Assembly: GCA_903889915.1 (NCBI GenBank)
Contig: CAISZK010000098.1
Coordinates: forward strand, 1 to 34,471
DNA length: 34,471 nucleotides
DNA from: an uncultured Bacteroidota bacterium
GTDB lineage: Bacteria; Bacteroidota; Bacteroidia; Bacteroidales; CG2-30-32-10
Direction of reading: 5' to 3'
The translations under genes were made by a program, and so were the position numbers. This document shows positions 4,996 through 33,269 of this stretch, piece after piece (the stretch's first letter is position 1; each line of letters begins with the position of its first letter). Under the pieces are notes generated by a model that was not told the DNA's origin, did no database searches, and saw only the letters and a program-made list of their open reading frames with translations.

Positions 4996-6240
4996 ATGAA
5001 AAACATTCTCAACATTTTTATAGCCCTGTTTCTGCTGAATTGCCCTGGTATTTCAACAGCATTTTCAGCAGGTCAGACTTCGCCTCATACTTACAAACAA
5101 ACCAATTCTTTGAACCATGACCTGGTTTTAGTAAAACCATTGGTGAATTTTAATGACACCAACGGTGGATTTTACAGCGATTATTACAAAGAGCAGGTGA
5201 ATAATATTTATTGCGGAGGGGTAGTGAAGAACAGCGGGCTTTTAAGCACTACCCATGTTTATTTGCTGGTACACATTTTAGGCTACAACAATAATGTGAT
5301 GGCTACATATACATCCGATACAATTCCACTTATGGCAGCAAACGAAACTGATACTTTGAAAGTTCAGCCATTCACAAATACCGGCAATTGGTACAATTTT
5401 AAAATTTCCTTTGAATTAATGAGCGATTCTACCGATGAAAATGCAGCCAACAATATTGATACTACTGCTACTTTAACGATGTGGGATCCCATGTGGTCGC
5501 ATGTATCAAGAGCAAATGTCCCTACGGCTACTTTAAACATAAACAATATTCCCAACTTTCATTCAGGAGATTTTATCGGGGCAACTTTAAAAATTCCTAA
5601 CTATAGTTTCCATTGGGCAGTAATGTTGTCGGTTTATTTAACTGATATTTTGCCCGATTCAGTAACCTTGGTTGCTGAAATTTATGAAAATGGAATTCTG
5701 AAAGGTTCTGATACTATTATAAGTAATACACAAGGTTGGGTAAGTACACCGCTCACATATTATTATTTCACAAATCAAATATCAACCGACAGCCTTTATT
5801 ATTTTGGTGTGAAAATAATTTGTCCAAACGGTACTAACATTCCGATAGGAATTGACACATCTGCATTTCATAATTTTCAGACAGAAACAGTAGCCAAAAT
5901 TGGCAATACCTGGACAACACTGAATTTTGTTCCCCTGATACAATTGGTTTGCGACCCCGAAGGTATCCCGGAGATCCCGAATAATGATCTGATTTCTGTT
6001 TACCCCAACCCTGCAACCAACAACCTGACCATACAGACTACCCGGCAAGCCACTATAGAAATCTTAAACATCGAGGGTCAAATAATCAAACGCATAGAAA
6101 CAAAAGAGGGCAAGACAAATGTTGACCACGTTGGATGGTCATCCTACGTGGTTGATGTTTCAGGCTTCTCAAAAGGGATTTACATGATAAGAGCACAGAC
6201 GGACAAGGGGCTGTGGATGGGGAAATTTGTGAAAGAATAA
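4996..6240 (+). CDS. Secreted T9SS type A sorting domain protein with palindrome insertion
   Basis: The protein has 414 residues. The signal peptide is at about 1-25 (MKNILNIFIALFLL to AFSAG). Residues 45-155 look like a beta-sandwich with spaced Asn/Thr strands (VVKNSGLLSTTHVYLLVHI), reminiscent of CARDB-like or Fn3-like folds. Residues 180-310 form a second beta-rich region (GDFIGATLKIPNYSF). The C-terminal domain (about 325-414) is the type A T9SS sorting domain: ISVYPNPATNNLTI, ILNIEGQIIKRIE, KGIYMIRAQTDKG and WMGKFVKE. It carries the same ten-residue HVGWSSYVVD interruption as the gene at 2612, from the insertion at 6126-6155. The protein is probably surface displayed. Its function is unknown, and the N-terminal part is unrelated to the other cassette genes, so the sorting cassette has been joined to different passengers. 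Confidence 0.8.
   Translation: MKNILNIFIALFLLNCPGISTAFSAGQTSPHTYKQTNSLNHDLVLVKPLVNFNDTNGGFYSDYYKEQVNNIYCGGVVKNSGLLSTTHVYLLVHILGYNNNVMATYTSDTIPLMAANETDTLKVQPFTNTGNWYNFKISFELMSDSTDENAANNIDTTATLTMWDPMWSHVSRANVPTATLNINNIPNFHSGDFIGATLKIPNYSFHWAVMLSVYLTDILPDSVTLVAEIYENGILKGSDTIISNTQGWVSTPLTYYYFTNQISTDSLYYFGVKIICPNGTNIPIGIDTSAFHNFQTETVAKIGNTWTTLNFVPLIQLVCDPEGIPEIPNNDLISVYPNPATNNLTIQTTRQATIEILNIEGQIIKRIETKEGKTNVDHVGWSSYVVDVSGFSKGIYMIRAQTDKGLWMGKFVKE
6121..6155 (+). repeat. 30-bp palindromic in-frame insertion, copy B, with GTTGA direct repeats
   Basis: GTTGA at 6121-6125 and 6151-6155 flank the insertion. The dyad spans 6125-6152: ACCACGTTGGATGG followed by TCATCCTACGTGGT, pairing at 12 of 14 positions. 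The encoded residues HVGWSSYVVD sit in a loop of the sorting domain. Confidence 0.75.
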
Positions 6241-14985: not shown

Positions 14986-15021
14986 GATATTGGATGTTGG
15001 ATGTTGGATATTGGATGTTGG
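14986..15021 (+). repeat. Heptamer tandem repeat (GATRTTG) x5
   Basis: Five seven-base units GATATTG, GATGTTG, GATGTTG, GATATTG, GATGTTG fill the 84-base gap between the adhesin and the PorP/SprF gene. No coding content or promoter box is seen. Confidence 0.7.
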
Positions 15022-15047
15022 AATTTGAGGCTTGAGATTTTTAAGAA

Positions 15048-22165: not shown

Positions 22166-22200
22166 CGCAACCTTGAACTTTGAACCTTAAACATTGAACG
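22166..22200 (-). repeat. Heptamer tandem repeat (GTTCAAR family)
   Basis: Read on the minus strand, GTTCAAT, GTTTAAG, GTTCAAA, GTTCAAG and GTTGCGG follow one another. This lies in the gap ahead of cutC. Confidence 0.55.
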
Positions 22201-22920: not shown

Positions 22921-23301
22921 GTGTTTCTGTATCATTTTCTCGATTTCTTCTTTCTTATTTTTCATACAATTCTCACACTTTTTAATCTGTTGGGCTGGAT
23001 ATGGAAAAAGACAAGGCTTGCCAATTTCATCTCTCTTCTCCTGACTGGTTTTGCCTGGTTTGGTTTGGGCATTTTTTATGGCATTGGTTATTGCCCGCTG
23101 ACTGACTGGCATTGGGATGTACTTGAAAAGTTAGGTGTGAAAAATCTACCTGATTCTTACATTACCTACATTATTCAACGACTGACAGGCATCAGGATGA
23201 ATGATCAATTTGTTGAAGCAGTAACATTGATATGCTTTATTGTCGCACTATTTATGTCTGTCTATTTGAATTTCTTTAGGAAGAAGTTAAAAGTGTGCTA
23301 A
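22921..23301 (+). CDS. DUF2784 family small membrane protein
   Basis: GTG 22921 is preferred as the start because it gives the usual family start (MFLYHFLDFFFLIFHT); TTG 22915 is also open. That gives 126 residues. Three to four hydrophobic segments are seen (about 3-22, 37-58, 99-118). The family mark is the sequence LFNLLGWIWKKTRLANF followed by YGIGYCPLTDWHW; the YCPLTDWHW block is conserved in DUF2784 proteins. They are inner-membrane proteins of unknown function. The stop codon lies inside the repeat that starts at 23291 (AAAGTGTGCTAA), so the last residues (KVC) come from repeat DNA. The true original C-terminus may have differed. Confidence 0.75.
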   Translation: MFLYHFLDFFFLIFHTILTLFNLLGWIWKKTRLANFISLLLTGFAWFGLGIFYGIGYCPLTDWHWDVLEKLGVKNLPDSYITYIIQRLTGIRMNDQFVEAVTLICFIVALFMSVYLNFFRKKLKVC

Positions 23302-23451
23302 AGTGTACTAAAGTGTCTAAAGTTACCGGATAAACAGAGATTATGACGCTTTGAGATCATCACGAATTCACTTTTCTCTAAACACACTACCATTGTTTTT
23401 GCTACTGCTGCTACTTCAAGTACTTTAGCACACTTTGGTAACCGTTTCTTT
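23291..23451. repeat. Repeat element with AAAGTGTACT inverted ends, copy 1
   Basis: The left part reads AAGTGTGCTAAAGTGTACT and on through GTCTAAAGTTACCGGATAAAC. The right part reads CTACCATTGTTTTTGCTACT, then CTTCAAGTACTTTAGCACAC and TTTGG. The ends are inverted relative to each other. Copy 2 at 24071-24302 has the same order, the same left GTTACCGGATAAAC, and the same right CCATTGTTTATGCTACTTC. The middle parts are diverged. Confidence 0.65.
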
Positions 23452-24070: not shown

Positions 24071-24302
24071 TAAGTGCCTAAAGTGTACTAGAGTGTACTA
24101 AAGTGTCTAAAGTTACCGGATAAACTGAGATTATTGCGAATTGGAATCATTGCATTATCTATTTCAATTACTCAAAATACACAGCCTCTACCATTGTTTA
24201 TGCTACTTCAAGTACTTTAGCACACTTTAGACACTTTAGTACACTCTAGTCACTTTAGTACACTTTAGCACACTTTAGACACTCTAGACACTCTAGTACA
24301 CT
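24071..24302. repeat. Repeat element with AAAGTGTACT inverted ends, copy 2
   Basis: Left end AAGTGCCTAAAGTGTACTAG, then AGTGTACTAAAGTGTC and GTTACCGGATAAAC as in copy 1. The right end is expanded to eight or more units of CTTTAGTACA/CTCTAGTCA type (24208-24302), the inverse of the left-hand units. It lies directly between the antitoxin promoter and the M50-like gene. Confidence 0.65.
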
Positions 24303-24311
24303 TCTTTTTCT

Positions 24312-26257: not shown

Positions 26258-29200
26258 ATGAAAAAAAGTTACTTATTGATCACATTGGCGCTGTTACTGT
26301 CATTTTCAATGCACAGTATCGCGCAAATTAGTCAGGGTGGATTACCCGAAAGTTTTCCAAAAGCCAATTTACTTAAGCCGGTAAATTATTCAACCATGGA
26401 ATCCGTTAATGTTGCACAACTGCAAGCGGAAGACATCATGCTCGACACATTGAAGAGCTTCCCGTGGAGATTTGGCGAGAATCTTTTTGTTGATCTCAGC
26501 CCACAGAATTCAGGTGTGTGGGATACGCTGAATAACGGAACAAAGATCTGGAGACTTGGAATCAGCTCGGCAGGAGCGCTTACGATCAACCTGACTTTTG
26601 ACAGATACATACTTCCTCCGGGAGCGAAATTATTTGTTTACAATTCCACGAAGTCTGAGGTGATCGGAGCATTCACTGATTTCAATAACCAGGCCGATAG
26701 TATTTTTGCAACAACACTATTGAGGGGAGATTCAATAATCATTGAATATAACGAACCGGAAAACGTAGCATTCCCGGGCCAACTTCACCTTTGGAGAGTA
26801 ACGCATGGCTACAGAAGCGCGGTTGATTATGCCAAGGCATTTGGAGGTTCAGGTTCATGTGAAATAAATGTTGCCTGCCCTACAGGTGTAGGTTGGGAAA
26901 ACCAAATTCGTTCAGTTTGCATGCTGGTAACCGGTGGCAGCGGCTTTTGCACAGGTTCACTTATCAACAATACAGCCAATGACGGCACACCATATATTCT
27001 TACAGCAAACCATTGTTACAGCGCACCCGGTTCATGGGTATTCTGGTTCAACTGGCAAAGCACCACATGCACCAATCCATCCTCATCGCCTTCGTATAAT
27101 TCAATATCGGGTGCAACCCTGGATGCGAGGACAACCACTTCAGATTTTTGCCTTGTGACCATGAGTAGTATTCCACCTTCAAACTACAACGTTTATTATG
27201 AAGGATGGAACAGAACAACCACTCCCCCCACAACAGGCATGGGCATTCACCATCCTAACGGCGATATCAAAAAGATCTCCCCGGCAGGTCAGTTTAGCGC
27301 TGCCGGTAGTGTTGATGAAGGAAACGGGGCAGCCGATTGCTGGCAAGTTAACTGGAGCGGACTTGCATGCACGGAGCCGGGTTCATCAGGTTCGCCAATC
27401 TATGGCGCAGATCATTTATTGGTTGGTCAGCTTTATGGCGGTCCTTCTGCCTGTGGTGAAACTACTGCCAATATGCATGATTTCTATGGGAGGTTCTGCA
27501 CATCATGGACAGGCGATGCAACCAATACAACACGTCTGAGCAACTGGCTTGATCCATCTTCATTAAATCCAAACACACTGCCGGGTTTCGACCCCAATGG
27601 ACCTATGGCTCCTATAGCCGCTTTCTCTGCAGCACCAACAACAACCTGCACCGGGGTTGTTCAATTTACTGATGCCAGTACAGGCGGCCCCACCGGATGG
27701 GCATGGAATTTTGGAGACGGAGGAACAGATACCACACAGAACCCTTCACATACTTATACCACCAGCGGCACATTTACAGTTACACTGATCGTCAGGAATT
27801 CTGTTGGTGATGATACGCTGATAAAAACAAATTACATCACCATCAACCTTCCATCTGCGCCTACTGCAACAGGAGGTTCAAATTGCGGAACCGGGACAGT
27901 TACACTCAACGCTACAGGCAGTGGAACAGTTGAATGGTTCAGCGCTGCTACAGGAGGTTCGCCGGTGCATACAGGCTCACCTTTCACAACACCAAGCTTA
28001 ACAACAACCACAACATATTTTGTTCAGGATTCTGTGCCCGGACCTTCACAGTATGTCGGAATGGTGAATGACACAACATCCGGAGCTAACTACACTCAGA
28101 ATATTGCACAGTATGAAATATTCGATTGTCTGAGTCCAGTGACATTGGTATCTGTTGAAGTGGTTGCATCCACAGCCGGCAACAGGACTATCTCATTGCA
28201 GAATTCATCAGGAACAACATTGCAAACAACTACAGTCAATGTCCCTGCAGGAAGGAGCAGAATTACTTTGAATTTCAGTGTTCCTGTTGGAACAAACCTG
28301 CGACTGGTTGGCCCTACCACACCAAACCTTTACAGAAGTAATAGCGGAGTGGCCTATCCATATACGCTTGCAGGGTTAATAAACATTACAACCAGCAGCG
28401 CCAGCACGAACCCTACAAGTTACTACTATTATTTTTACAAGTGGGAAATCAAGAACAGCGCATGCATCAGTGCAAGGACACCTGTGGTTGCAACTATCAA
28501 CACTCCATCACCGGTATCTTTGAATATTGCAGCCAATCCAACAGGTGCGATATGCTCAGGAACAAGTGTTACTTTTACAGCAACACCAACCAATGGTGGA
28601 ACGTTGCCAACATATCTGTGGAAGAAAAATGGCGCTACCATTACAGGAGCTACAAACGCTACATACTCATCAAGCACTCTTGCCAATAATGACGTGATCA
28701 CTTGTGTGCTGACAAGCAATGGCACCTGCATTTCAGGTTCACCTGCAACATCCAATTCCATTACAATGGTGGTGAATAATGCGGCTGCGGCTGCGGTGAA
28801 TATAGCAGCAAATCCTGCAGGAGCGATCTGTGCGGGCACGAATGTCACTTTCACTGCCACACCGGTCAATGGGGGAACACTGCCAACATACCAATGGTTG
28901 AAGAACGGTGCAGTTATTAATGGCGCATCAAGTTCAACATACAGCTCAAGCACGCTTACAAACAATAGTTCCATTTCATGTGTGATGACCAGCAATGCAG
29001 GCTGTGTAATGGGTTCGCCTGACACATCAAGTGCAGTTGTCATGACAGTGAATGCGCCGGCAACGGTTTCAGTGAGCATTGCAGCAAATCCTACCGGACC
29101 TCAATGTTCCGGAACGAGTATCACCTTCTCTGCAACACCTGCAAACGGAGGCACCACACCTGTATATCAATGGCAGGTGAATGGAGGTAATGTTGGAACC

Positions 29201-30634
29201 AATGCATCCACATTTTCAAGTTCAACTTTGAATAACAGCGATATTGTTACGTGTATCCTTACATCCAATGCAACATGTGTTACTGCTAATCCTGCTACTT
29301 CAAATGCAATTACAACTGTGATAAGTTCGGCGCTGACTGCGGGAGTTAACATTGCAGCAAGTCCCTCGACGACCACATGCCCGGGAACAAATATTACCTT
29401 TACTGCCACACCGGTCAACGGTGGAAGCAATCCTGTTTATGACTGGGAAGTAAACGGAAGCTCGGTGGGAACGAATAGTCCTACCTATTCATCGTCAACT
29501 TTGAATACCGGTGATGTTGTGAGCTGCCAGATGACTTCCAACTCATCATGTGCGACAGGAAGTCCGGCGACATCAAATTCGCTGACAATTACAATTACCA
29601 GTACACTCTCAGCTTCCGTGATCATTTCGGCCAACCCGGGGATAAACATTTGTGCAGGAACGAGCGTTACTTTCACTGCTACTCCTTACAATGGCGGAAC
29701 ACCTTCATACCAATGGAATGTTAATGGCACCAATGTGGGAACAAACAGTGATACCTATACCACATCAACTCTTGCAAACAGTGATGTTATCAGTTGTGTG
29801 ATGACTGCATCAGAATCCTGTGCGACAAATAACCCGGCTACCTCAAATTCTTTGACTGTAGTGCTGAATCCATTGTTACCATCAAGTGTAAGCATCGTTC
29901 AAAATCCTACAGGAACCGTTTGCAGTGGTACTGCTGTAACCTTTACCGCAACATCTGTGAATGGAGGGATCAACCCTGTTTATCAGTGGCAGGTGAATGG
30001 AGTTGATGTTGGCAGCAATAGTTCGGTATATGTCACTTCAGCGTTGAATGATGGAGATGTTGTGAACTGCCAGATGACTTCTTCATTAAGTTGTGTTACT
30101 GCAAATCCTGCTGTTTCCAATGATGAAACTGCTTCTGTGACACCGGGACCGGTTACACCGACAATCACACAAAACGGAGATACGCTTGTTTCATCAGCAG
30201 CTACAGGCAATCAATGGTATTTCGAAAATGCACTTGGCAGCTTCCCTGTTTCAGGAGCAAACGGACAAACTTATTTGCCGATAGTGACGGGGAGTTATTA
30301 CACAATAGTTACAGGTGGCGGATGTTCATCAGACAGTTCGAATATCATTTATGTGGTGATAACAGGTATCAATGAATTCTCAACTTCTTCAGTTCTTATT
30401 TATCCAAATCCTGTAACAAACACCTTGTATGTTGATTTCACAGGGGTTTTGACAGGCAGCACCGATATTGAGATCATGAACAGTCTTGGTCAATTGGTGA
30501 ATAAAGTGAGTTTTGAGAATATCGCAAAAGATGCTGTTAAAGAATTCAACATGTCGGTATTTCCAAAGGGGATCTATTTCATGAGAATTAAAAACGAGCA
30601 TTTGTTCCATGTTGAAAAGTTGGTGATTGATTAG
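26258..30634 (+). CDS. Lysyl-endopeptidase-like secreted serine protease with PKD and six tandem Ig-like repeats, T9SS cargo
   Basis: The protein has 1458 residues. The signal peptide is at 1-23 (LLITLALLLSFSMHSIAQ). A propeptide-like region (24-200, IWRLGISSAGALTINLTFDRY) precedes a trypsin-fold domain of lysyl endopeptidase type (about 205-425). The catalytic triad is visible: His252 (LTANHC), Asp296 (TTSDFCLV) and Ser377 (EPGSSGSPIY), with several cysteines for disulfides. Then come a PKD domain (about 453-530, WNFGDGGTDTTQNPSHTY), an Ig-like unit (531-595), an unassigned beta domain (about 597-745), six tandem repeats of 89-92 residues (about 750-1293, each with IAANPTG, CSGTSVTFTATP-like cores and a conserved pair of cysteines), and a T9SS sorting domain (about 1370-1458, VLIYPNPVTNTLYV, NSLGQLVNK, PKGIYFMRI). 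It should be a secreted or surface protease, possibly nutritional. Confidence 0.9.
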   Translation: MKKSYLLITLALLLSFSMHSIAQISQGGLPESFPKANLLKPVNYSTMESVNVAQLQAEDIMLDTLKSFPWRFGENLFVDLSPQNSGVWDTLNNGTKIWRLGISSAGALTINLTFDRYILPPGAKLFVYNSTKSEVIGAFTDFNNQADSIFATTLLRGDSIIIEYNEPENVAFPGQLHLWRVTHGYRSAVDYAKAFGGSGSCEINVACPTGVGWENQIRSVCMLVTGGSGFCTGSLINNTANDGTPYILTANHCYSAPGSWVFWFNWQSTTCTNPSSSPSYNSISGATLDARTTTSDFCLVTMSSIPPSNYNVYYEGWNRTTTPPTTGMGIHHPNGDIKKISPAGQFSAAGSVDEGNGAADCWQVNWSGLACTEPGSSGSPIYGADHLLVGQLYGGPSACGETTANMHDFYGRFCTSWTGDATNTTRLSNWLDPSSLNPNTLPGFDPNGPMAPIAAFSAAPTTTCTGVVQFTDASTGGPTGWAWNFGDGGTDTTQNPSHTYTTSGTFTVTLIVRNSVGDDTLIKTNYITINLPSAPTATGGSNCGTGTVTLNATGSGTVEWFSAATGGSPVHTGSPFTTPSLTTTTTYFVQDSVPGPSQYVGMVNDTTSGANYTQNIAQYEIFDCLSPVTLVSVEVVASTAGNRTISLQNSSGTTLQTTTVNVPAGRSRITLNFSVPVGTNLRLVGPTTPNLYRSNSGVAYPYTLAGLINITTSSASTNPTSYYYYFYKWEIKNSACISARTPVVATINTPSPVSLNIAANPTGAICSGTSVTFTATPTNGGTLPTYLWKKNGATITGATNATYSSSTLANNDVITCVLTSNGTCISGSPATSNSITMVVNNAAAAAVNIAANPAGAICAGTNVTFTATPVNGGTLPTYQWLKNGAVINGASSSTYSSSTLTNNSSISCVMTSNAGCVMGSPDTSSAVVMTVNAPATVSVSIAANPTGPQCSGTSITFSATPANGGTTPVYQWQVNGGNVGTNASTFSSSTLNNSDIVTCILTSNATCVTANPATSNAITTVISSALTAGVNIAASPSTTTCPGTNITFTATPVNGGSNPVYDWEVNGSSVGTNSPTYSSSTLNTGDVVSCQMTSNSSCATGSPATSNSLTITITSTLSASVIISANPGINICAGTSVTFTATPYNGGTPSYQWNVNGTNVGTNSDTYTTSTLANSDVISCVMTASESCATNNPATSNSLTVVLNPLLPSSVSIVQNPTGTVCSGTAVTFTATSVNGGINPVYQWQVNGVDVGSNSSVYVTSALNDGDVVNCQMTSSLSCVTANPAVSNDETASVTPGPVTPTITQNGDTLVSSAATGNQWYFENALGSFPVSGANGQTYLPIVTGSYYTIVTGGGCSSDSSNIIYVVITGINEFSTSSVLIYPNPVTNTLYVDFTGVLTGSTDIEIMNSLGQLVNKVSFENIAKDAVKEFNMSVFPKGIYFMRIKNEHLFHVEKLVID
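28515..30137 (+). repeat. Six tandem coding repeats of about 270 bp
   Basis: Units start near 28515, 28791, 29068, 29335, 29609 and 29880, with spacings of 267-277 bases. Each encodes one Ig-like domain of the protease. The units are similar but not identical at DNA level, which permits copy-number change by recombination. Confidence 0.75.
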
Positions 30635-30664: not shown

Positions 30665-30700
30665 TGCCGCTTGATAGGGATATTGAGCGGCATTTTTTTT
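30665..30700 (+). terminator. Rho-independent terminator after the protease gene
   Basis: TGCCGCT (30665-30671) and AGCGGCA (30686-30692) form a perfect seven-base stem followed by eight T residues (30693-30700), 31 bases after the stop. Confidence 0.75.
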
Positions 30701-30810
30701 GTGATGGTAGTGCAGTGGGGTTGGTTATGAAGAATGATGGTTTTGTTGAAATTTTGTTTCAATAATAATATCGTCCATAGAGAACATTTGATCAGAGTTG
30801 TTTTTCAAGG

Positions 30811-31020
30811 CTACCATAATGCCGTCACTACCGTGACTTTTGTTTGAGCGTTATTAAACTATAATACCAAAATGTCGTCACTACCGTGACTTTAGTTTAA
30901 GCTTATTATTATTGTACTACCAATATGCCGTCACTCCGTGACTCTCATTTGAGCATTATTAAACTGTACTACCTATCTGTCGTCAGCTCGTGACTTTCGT
31001 TCAAGCGGATTTTAAATATT
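30811..31020. repeat. Array of four 53-bp tandem repeats with internal GTCAC/GTGAC dyads
   Basis: The dyads start at 30824, 30877, 30930 and 30982, a period of 53, 53 and 52 bases. Each unit has CTACC, AATATG-like sequence, CCGTCACTACCGTGACTTT (unit 3 lacks two inner bases; unit 4 has GTCAG with CTC), then TTTGAGCATTATTAAACT. A weak fifth unit may precede it near 30760. This lies in a 520-base gap between convergent genes with no gene in it. Confidence 0.75.
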
Positions 31021-31078: not shown

Positions 31079-31120
31079 AAAAAAAATCCGGGTGCGAACT
31101 GGAGTCGCGCCCGGACTTTT
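31079..31120. terminator. Bidirectional terminator between convergent genes
   Basis: TCCGGGTGCGA (31087-31097) pairs with TCGCGCCCGGA (31105-31115) at ten of eleven positions. Eight A residues precede it and four T residues follow, so it works best for the minus-strand gene at 31155-33269 (T run of eight) and more weakly on the plus strand. Confidence 0.75.
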
Positions 31121-31154: not shown

Positions 31155-33269
31155 TTATTTGATCACAGATAATTTTTTAAACAACACCACATCATCCGTT
31201 GTGAGCCTGTATAAATAAATTCCAGATGAAAGATCACTGGTGTTGAATTTCACATGTTGCCATCCTGCATCACGCTTTTCATTCACGAGGGTGGCCATCA
31301 GTTGTCCTGATAAGGAATAAACCTGCAATGTCACTTGTTTTGCCTGTGGCAACGTAAAGGATATTTCAGTCTCGCTGCTGCATGGGTTCGGAGTGTTTTG
31401 CATCAGTTGATATGCATCAGGTGTTCCGGGATTATCATTGATCCCTGCAGGTGAATGGAGGATGGTACAGCTACCGCTTCCATCAGTAATAGTAGCATTC
31501 ACCGGTGTTGAAAGATTCATTGTAAAATAAATGTTTGAGCTGTGATTGTGATTAACCAGAACAGGCACCTGAATCTGTTTCATGATCTGATCAGTTGTGA
31601 ATGTCAGAATTCCTGTGGTTGTGGTATAATCGCTGCCTGCGATTGCTGTTGCATTTGTTGTTGTGTAATGAACAGTGATCGTTTGCTGAGCCGGCGATGA
31701 GAGACACACTGTAAACACAGCGTTGACTGGTCCTGCCCATGGTTCGGGGATAGTAATATCTTTAATGCAAATACCGGGTGTGATCACAGGTATTTTTGTT
31801 GTTGTTCCGTGAAGAATCACTGATGTGACTGTTTGTCCTGCGGGAGCATTGCCAAGAATAGCATTGGTACCACCAAATCCGCTTGCACCGCCATTGCCGA
31901 GAGTGAAGTAATTTGTGTCGGCCTGAACTGTTGAAGTTCCTGCAATGTAAATACCAACTGAAGCGCCACCTGCACCACCGGCTCCTGAACCTGCTGCACC
32001 ACCATTGCCACCTGCACCGCCGTATCCACCTGCACCAATTTCACCAGTGCATGTGTTGCCACCGGCAGCGCCAGCGCCACCAACACCACCAAGTCCTCCA
32101 TTGCCACCTTTGGCTCCTGTGCCACCAGCACCTGTCATGATCTTGTTGCGGTCAATCACAGCGATGGCATTATTCACCAATACGCCGAATGAGCAACCAC
32201 CCGACAGACCACCTGTTCCGACAGTACCGGCACAACCGCCGCCACCACCGCCGCCGCCACCGTTTCCGCTACCATTGTCGCACAGTGTACATCCCTGTCC
32301 ACCGCCGCCACCAGCGCCACCGCCACCATTTCCATTAGTTCCTGCTATGCCATTACCGCCTGATGAAGGTATGTATAATCCGGCACTGGTAATAGTACCA
32401 AATGAGGGAGCAACTGTTCCGTTAGTGCCATTGGCACCTGCAGATCCTGCAACGCCTGTGCCACCCTGGCTGCCGGGATTACCACCGGCACCACCTACAC
32501 CACCTGCTGCTCCGCCAACTCCCGAAGTTCCGTTTGCGCCTGCATTTGCGCCTTCAGATCCACCGACACCACCTGCGCCACCGTTTTGGCCACATGGCGA
32601 TGTTCCGCCTACTCCACCTGCTCCAGGTGTTGAACCATCGCAAGAACCCAAACCGCCGGCGCTTCCTGATGTCGCGCTTGCACCTGCAGTTCCATTGTTT
32701 CCTATTGTTCCGTTAGCACCGGCACCCGGCTTAAGTGTGTTGAAACGAAGAATGGTTGCAGCCGAGCCGCTGTTGATACGAACTGCATAGCTGCTTTCGC
32801 CTGCATTGATAGCCGATGCGGCATCAATTTCGAAACCTTCAATATGGGTGTCGAGGTTCAAACTATCAGCATACACTGCGGTTTGCACACCACTGATGAT
32901 GGTGGTATTGGTCGCTGAACGTGACCAGCCTGCAGTGCAGTTAAATTCGCCATAAAGACTAACACCTGAAACTATACGCAAAGGTGCAGTTAGAATATAA
33001 GTGCCCATTGAAACATAGACATCCTTGCCTGCCAGCGCAGCCAGTTGAATTCCTTTTTCTATTGTTTTCACCGGCTTTTGTTTGGTACCTGTGTACGTGT
33101 CGTTACCGGTTACTGCAACAAAAATTGCTTTGGTAGAATCACCGTCAATGCCGTCGCCATTTACATCCTGAAACAAATTATCAGGAATATCCCTGGGAGG
33201 ACAGGTTTGTGCAAAAGATCCTTTCATGATGAACAATGAGAGAAACATTGCAATGTAGAGTTTTTTCAT
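31155..33269 (-). CDS. Glycine-rich T9SS surface protein with DUF1565-like region and Calx-beta domain
   Basis: The protein has 704 residues. The signal peptide is at 1-21 (LYIAMFLSLFIMKGSFAQ). Residues 45-180 resemble the DUF1565/pectate-lyase-like parallel beta-helix proteins (FVAVTGNDTYTGTKQKPVKT, AGKDVYVSMGTYIL). Residues about 185-475 are a Gly/Ala-rich stretch (GGVGGAGG, GGAGGNGG) with a short break (CSFGVLVNNAIAVIDRNKIM) that looks like a beta-helix coil. About 505-610 is a Calx-beta domain (AVFTVCLSSPAQQTITVHYTT, GILTFTTDQ). The sorting domain (about 611-704) has QNTPNPCSSETEI, VYSLSGQLMATLV and SSGIYLYRLTTDD. The whole product looks like an extended surface-exposed fibre or coating protein. 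Its GC-rich repetitive coding differs sharply from its AT-rich neighbours. A cell-surface location is inferred; function unknown. Confidence 0.8.
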   Translation of the reverse strand: MKKLYIAMFLSLFIMKGSFAQTCPPRDIPDNLFQDVNGDGIDGDSTKAIFVAVTGNDTYTGTKQKPVKTIEKGIQLAALAGKDVYVSMGTYILTAPLRIVSGVSLYGEFNCTAGWSRSATNTTIISGVQTAVYADSLNLDTHIEGFEIDAASAINAGESSYAVRINSGSAATILRFNTLKPGAGANGTIGNNGTAGASATSGSAGGLGSCDGSTPGAGGVGGTSPCGQNGGAGGVGGSEGANAGANGTSGVGGAAGGVGGAGGNPGSQGGTGVAGSAGANGTNGTVAPSFGTITSAGLYIPSSGGNGIAGTNGNGGGGAGGGGGQGCTLCDNGSGNGGGGGGGGGCAGTVGTGGLSGGCSFGVLVNNAIAVIDRNKIMTGAGGTGAKGGNGGLGGVGGAGAAGGNTCTGEIGAGGYGGAGGNGGAAGSGAGGAGGASVGIYIAGTSTVQADTNYFTLGNGGASGFGGTNAILGNAPAGQTVTSVILHGTTTKIPVITPGICIKDITIPEPWAGPVNAVFTVCLSSPAQQTITVHYTTTNATAIAGSDYTTTTGILTFTTDQIMKQIQVPVLVNHNHSSNIYFTMNLSTPVNATITDGSGSCTILHSPAGINDNPGTPDAYQLMQNTPNPCSSETEISFTLPQAKQVTLQVYSLSGQLMATLVNEKRDAGWQHVKFNTSDLSSGIYLYRLTTDDVVLFKKLSVIK

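Follow-up and report, generated by a model that had tools for sequence, protein, structure and literature searches.

The window analysed here, a stretch of 34,471 nucleotides from an uncultured Bacteroidota bacterium, carries a short tandem array between two convergent genes whose products, secreted surface proteins, end in type IX sorting tails (Table 1). TRF detected the array with a score of 208, 3.1–3.7 copies and 79–80% matches, which bears out the 53-base period and the four units described in an earlier note on this DNA. The dyads also read as described there, with GTCAC-N4-GTGAC in units 1 and 2, N3 in unit 3 and an altered arm in unit 4. In a terminator scan, each side of the array has its own terminator-like hairpin, stronger than those of the array. 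The window gave no match in Rfam, and no tRNA or tmRNA was found in it. When the search was confined to the window, a 16-nt consensus found two matches at up to 3 mismatches, a number reached in 5 of 100 shuffles; the strength of the dyad signal is therefore genome-wide. Arrays elsewhere in the same genome are similar to this one over about 30810–31001.

The window also contains decamer tandem repeats (ACTTTAGNAC) at 23290–23323, 24078–24113 and 24205–24303, whose 17-nt pattern has 14 matches in the genome, four of them in the window, versus none for a reversed control. Heptamer repeats (GATGTTG, AACCTTG) lie at 14986–15022 and 22169–22199, between or at the ends of ORFs.

Table 1. Features of the array and its surroundings, in positions of the window (R1, covariance model of the units).
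Feature	Position	Strand	Basis
Four-unit tandem array of putative REP-like hairpins	30811..31001	minus	TRF period 53; similarity to own-genome arrays
Unit: AAA, stem GTCAC, loop GGTA (GNNA), stem, spacer GGC, tail ATTATGGTAG	30811..30840	minus	sequence
R1 match to this unit	30809-30843		E=0.0047
Unit: AAA, GTCAC-GGTA-GTGAC, spacer GAC, tail ATTTTGGTA	30865..30893	minus	sequence
R1 match to this unit	30862-30896		E=1.2e-4
Unit: GTCAC-GGA-GTGAC (GNA loop), spacer GGC, tail ATATTGGTAG	30917..30942	minus	sequence
R1 match to this unit	30915-30948		E=7.2e-7; unit is among the 39 sequences used to build R1
Decayed unit: closing C-G pair gone (GTCAC-GAG-CTGAC), tail AGATAGGTAG retained	30969..30997	minus	sequence; no R1 match at E<=0.01
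Dyad 1, N4	30824-30837		sequence
Dyad 2, N4	30877-30890		sequence
Dyad 3, N3	30930-30942		sequence
Dyad 4, arm altered (GTCAG-CTC-GTGAC)	30982-30994		sequence
Flanking gene: PKD/Ig-like surface protein, type IX secretion C-terminal sorting domain	26258..30634	+	Pfam PF18911, PF19081, PF18962
Flanking gene: Calx-beta protein, type IX secretion C-terminal sorting domain	31155..33269	-	Pfam PF03160, PF18962
Separate strong terminator-like hairpin, the upstream gene's own (12 pairs, T-run)	30665..30692	+	terminator scan
Second separate terminator-like hairpin (11 pairs)	31087..31115	+	terminator scan

A dispersed family of hairpin units

The array is one of roughly 40–50 places with such units in its own genome. 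Searching for other arrays with the same dyad, as the earlier note had suggested, gave 91 matches to GTCACTN{0,3}CGTGAC in the 5.55 Mb assembly versus 3 for the reversed pattern. Read on the minus strand, a unit consists of a 5-bp hairpin, exactly 3 nt and then a tail, AT-N-TT-[TG]-GTA(G/A). When both strands are read, neighbouring hairpins of one locus differ in their stems and have this downstream motif in common. Pair counts on units preselected for perfect pairing are 100% by construction; the non-circular test is a comparison of spacers downstream of hairpins at 97 exact tails from 46 loci of the genome, with no stem sequence specified. A perfect 5-bp hairpin with a loop of 3 or 4 was present at spacer 3 for 70 of the 97 tails, and none was present at spacers 0, 1, 2 or 4–7.

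The stems change in sequence with strict Watson-Crick compensation. Among 88 units with at most one tail mismatch, GTCAC was found in 49, ATCAC in 14, ACCTC in 9 and ATCCC in 5, and the rarer stems were GTCCC (4), GTCCT (3), ACTCC (3) and AATCC (1). The last was judged a chance occurrence and excluded from the covariance model R1, which leaves seven recurring stem types in the genome. R1, built on a gapless alignment of 39 units, has at least 123 matches in the genome at E≤0.01 among the 150 candidates scored. At the sixth stem position, beyond the 5-bp core used in the scans, 64 of 89 units have an A-G mismatch and 20 a Watson-Crick pair; the strongest mutual information (0.56) links the bases that immediately precede and follow the stem, as a foot pair or A-G mismatch. 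A guide-cleavage pairing of the IS608 type was also considered, and mutual information gave no clear link between 5′ flank and tail.

Only one of 89 units lies within an ORF of 100 aa or more. Twenty neighbouring pairs are in tandem, 49–53 bp apart and mostly 51, so the helical phasing of about five turns that had been suggested for the window array is not conserved. Twelve further pairs are inverted with their tails outward, 11 of them at 23–24 nt, and no pairs with the tags inward were seen; inverted dimers of the REPIN/BIME type are thus present in this genome. The position in a convergent gap, also pointed out earlier, is true of the window array and is not characteristic of the family, as such gaps hold 8 of the 39 unit groups that could be placed, versus 23 of 182 adjacent ORF pairs at the same loci.

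R1 has matches at E≤0.001 in 59 of 247 genomes of the order; these differ in the stem and keep the tail. The dyad pattern itself gave mostly single, chance-like matches in 40 relatives. One genome from another family of the order (G013) had ten, nine of which belong to one repeat, and these were set aside as their flanks differ; the dispersed repeat TCGCGGTCACTTCGTGACTTTTGA, at the loci L062–L072 of this genome, is different from the units described here.

Hairpin units at Y1 transposase genes

Units of this design are physically associated with genes for small Y1 transposases. At the best of six Y1_Tnp loci in the genome of the window (L076, on contig C339), eight units lie within 2.6 kb on both sides of the gene. 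Two or more hairpins with a shared tail (9 nt, one mismatch at most) were found at 27 of 36 Y1 loci, comprising these six and 30 from the order, versus one of 30 tRNA-synthetase loci (PF00133) and one of 30 DDE-transposase loci (PF01609, DDE_Tnp_1) from the same genomes. Tails of the window type occurred at 15 of the 36 Y1 loci, at none of the 30 PF00133 loci and at one of the 30 PF01609 loci.

Since the genomes behind these 36 loci had been chosen for model matches, we added an independent set of the best 80 genome-contig loci, ranked by nearness to an alignment of 17 transposases. Shared-tail hairpins were present at 73 of the 80. Window-type tails had a hairpin at spacer 3 in 131 cases, versus 0, 1, 1, 4, 0, 2 and 0 cases at spacers 0, 1, 2 and 4–7. 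The list of window-type tails includes ATATCGGTA, which was taken from L076 itself, and because similarity to L076 determined the ranking of the 80 loci, ATATCGGTA should be prevalent in this set if tails go with transposases. Some loci of the independent set have tails of another pattern; 49 of the 73 fit A.....[GT]TA.

At 66 loci with a usable protein and tail, the nearest upstream unit has the sense of the gene in 45 cases and the opposite sense in 5, and the nearest downstream unit is antisense in 41 and sense in 13, so that the nearest units are inverted around the Y1 gene. The tails co-vary with the transposases: distances between transposases and between tails are correlated (Mantel r=0.41, reached in 0 of 2000 permutations), a correlation to which shared descent contributes. 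At the level of whole genomes, co-occurrence is not discriminating, as Y1_Tnp is present in 18 of 20 genomes of the order picked for model matches and in 16 of 20 without such matches; two model-positive genomes (G035, G052) are without Y1_Tnp.

In the genome of the window, three of the six Y1 loci (L078, L080, L081) have no shared-tail hairpins even at two mismatches, and none of the six genes is flanked by GTCAC units with the exact tails of the window. Nearest to a cognate is the Y1 gene on C339, flanked by ATATCGGTA units; together with a GGGAC arm, ATATCGGTA has only eight exact copies, all on C339 and C215. The window copy thus looks like an orphan cluster in a genome without its exact cognate transposase.

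The transposases are about 150 aa long, and the motifs HxH, WQ and Y---Q--HH are invariant in all 17 aligned sequences, while the first HUH residue varies between D, N and E. According to the available text of a 2018 survey (PMC6006769), TnpAY1 subclass 1.2 is defined by DH[IV]H, WQ and Y---Q--HH at about 148 aa and is mostly restricted to Cyanobacteria and Bacteroidetes. In motifs, length and distribution in Bacteroidetes, our transposases match this subclass and, as judged from their protein sequences, carry its signature. NCBIfam NF033573 names six of seven tested transposases as IS200/IS605, above the cut-off, and the NCBIfam REP model stays below its own cut-off; their relatives in the PDB are transposases. 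Near-identical copies as in IS elements were not seen among the own-genome loci, with L077–L079 only 37–49% identical to L076.

Probable DNA hairpins and alternative readings

The earlier note had listed a repeated RNA structure among the possible roles of the array, and the repeated structure stands. The units could be RNA hairpins, acting as terminators or 3′-end stabilisers under selection on the transcript, with a secondary link to the transposase. On the plus strand, T-rich stretches follow the hairpins, which rate as weak terminators, and RNA folding of the array beats that of shuffled sequences (z of −2.7 on the plus and −2.1 on the minus strand). However, both neighbouring genes have stronger terminators of their own, Rfam has no match, and the units show no strong bias towards convergent gaps. 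Moreover, units in which one of the five pairs is broken have as many G-T as A-C mismatches (7 versus 7, few cases and some of them by chance), so that G-U pairs have no advantage. On the strand where the tail stands 3′ of the hairpin, three-nucleotide loops are GNA in 65 of 85 of the genome's own units, and four-nucleotide loops are GNNA in 84 of 95 in the independent genome-contig set, with a closing C-G pair in 349 of 362 units over five unit sets. C(GNA)G is an unusually stable DNA mini-hairpin. The DNA folding energy from a thermodynamic model is modest (−3.2 kcal/mol per unit versus −2.8 on the reverse strand), and compared with shuffles it was not exceptional for one of two units tested. 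Together with the strict pairing, the evidence points to single-stranded DNA hairpins rather than RNA. As a reading by RNA also leaves the conserved tail at 3 nt and the flanking of Y1 genes unexplained, we regard it as improbable.

We likewise consider it unlikely that the units are remnants of MITEs or DNA transposons, riding in larger elements moved by a different transposase. Such an origin would fit a composite of several units found at 14 places in the genome (including L022, about 5400–5800), with full copies of about 260 bp, conserved and apparently inverted ends and unrelated flanks. It would also fit the finding that four contigs agree without a mismatch over stretches of at least 80 bases surrounding one two-unit array. 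Yet the DDE_Tnp_1 loci are almost without units (1 of 30), Y1 genes are flanked by units directly, and the composite could be a REP cluster of higher order. The regular period and the dyads would suit an array bound by a protein as an iteron, partition, decoy or regulatory operator site, the first three of which the earlier note had also proposed. Here, pairing survives free variation of the arms, the opposite of what marks a sequence-specific operator, the tail is asymmetric, the units are dispersed over tens of loci, and the eight window ORFs scanned, part of those in the window, include no replication or partition gene. We therefore give protein binding hardly any credence. As to a CRISPR array, which would have unique spacers and cas genes, the sequences between units at L010 and L050 are themselves repeated.

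Relation to REP systems

Our preferred reading, that the window array is a head-to-tail cluster of REP-like units whose single-stranded DNA hairpins are processed by subclass 1.2 transposases, is likely to be correct. As single-stranded DNA, the minus strand of a unit can fold into a mini-hairpin of 5 bp whose GNA or GNNA loop is closed by a C-G pair, with the tail following at a fixed 3 nt. Y1 (HUH-tyrosine) transposases of subclass 1.2 would recognise such hairpins in single strands, of which the lagging-strand template is one example, and may cut at or near the conserved tail, whereby units could be copied or moved within the genome; recognition, cleavage, mobility and the strand used are what we infer here.

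Like the TnpAREP REPtrons of the REP/RAYT kind in the available text of two studies (PMC6006769, PMC8266576), our units are short, many-copy intergenic hairpins in tandem and inverted clusters, flank a small Y1 HUH transposase gene and have tags that co-vary with the transposase. Stems of 5 bp are described for Marinomonas REPs in the available part of PMC8266576, and as multi-copy extragenic palindromes our units agree with canonical REPs. In contrast, the GT[AG]G that stands 0–2 nt 5′ of the stem in REP/RAYT is absent from our tail-selected units on both strands (0 of 89 own units and 0 of 228 at Y1 loci), and their conserved tag is on the 3′ side, where it begins 3 nt from the hairpin. Class 2 transposases of REP/RAYT have Y---NP, whereas ours have Y---Q--HH in 17 of 17. 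Because two defining features, the 5′ GT[AG]G and the Y---NP enzyme, are lacking, we do not file the array as a canonical REP; we regard it as a variant of the REP/RAYT kind that very probably works like one.

The 2018 survey, in its available portion, lists subclass 1.2 with “no” under REP and as generally without terminal structures of the IS200 type, whereas hairpin units flank most of the loci examined here (PMC6006769). Its search for REPs admitted only hairpins with GT[AG]G on their 5′ side and a stem of at least 7 nt (PMC6006769, same portion), features that our units lack. We found no description of REPs for subclass 1.2 in the literature searched, which mostly excluded subscription papers. 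CGTC-tagged REPs (PMC3733652) are likewise palindromic and occur in Bacteroidetes, and the plus strand of the window reads CGTC at the stem. As far as the available text of that study goes, they have stems of 8–9 bp and no adjoining transposase gene, whereas our units flank Y1 genes; the paired core taken as 5 bp in our scans varies freely. The likeness to IS200/IS605 lies in the NCBIfam name and the PDB relatives of the transposases. The ends of IS200 have a same-strand layout, unlike the inverted arrangement of our nearest units around the gene.

More broadly, we lean towards the view that subclass 1.2 is a phylum-wide REP system of its own, with a single-stranded DNA mini-hairpin of the form C(GNA)G or C(GNNA)G and a 3′ tag co-evolving with the transposase, from which intergenic hairpins and tandem arrays have arisen in their hundreds throughout Bacteroidota. 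If true, this would provide a function and substrates for this transposase subclass, and would account for a large class of hairpin repeats found between genes in Bacteroidota. Owing to the 3′ tag and to loops of the DNA type, the choice of strand and the site of cleavage can be tested with short oligonucleotides. Moreover, the system would offer a new comparison for how IS200-type enzymes turned into REP-processing enzymes.

Hairpins of other types also occur beside Y1 genes. At L079 (1946–2280), 56-bp tandem hairpins of a second family, AATCCC-TTC-GGGATT with another tail, adjoin the Y1 transposase gene of that locus. At L127, L114 and L117, the hairpins next to the Y1 genes have TAAA/TTTA or TGAA/TTCA loops and tails of quite another kind, and perhaps represent a separate branch of the system.
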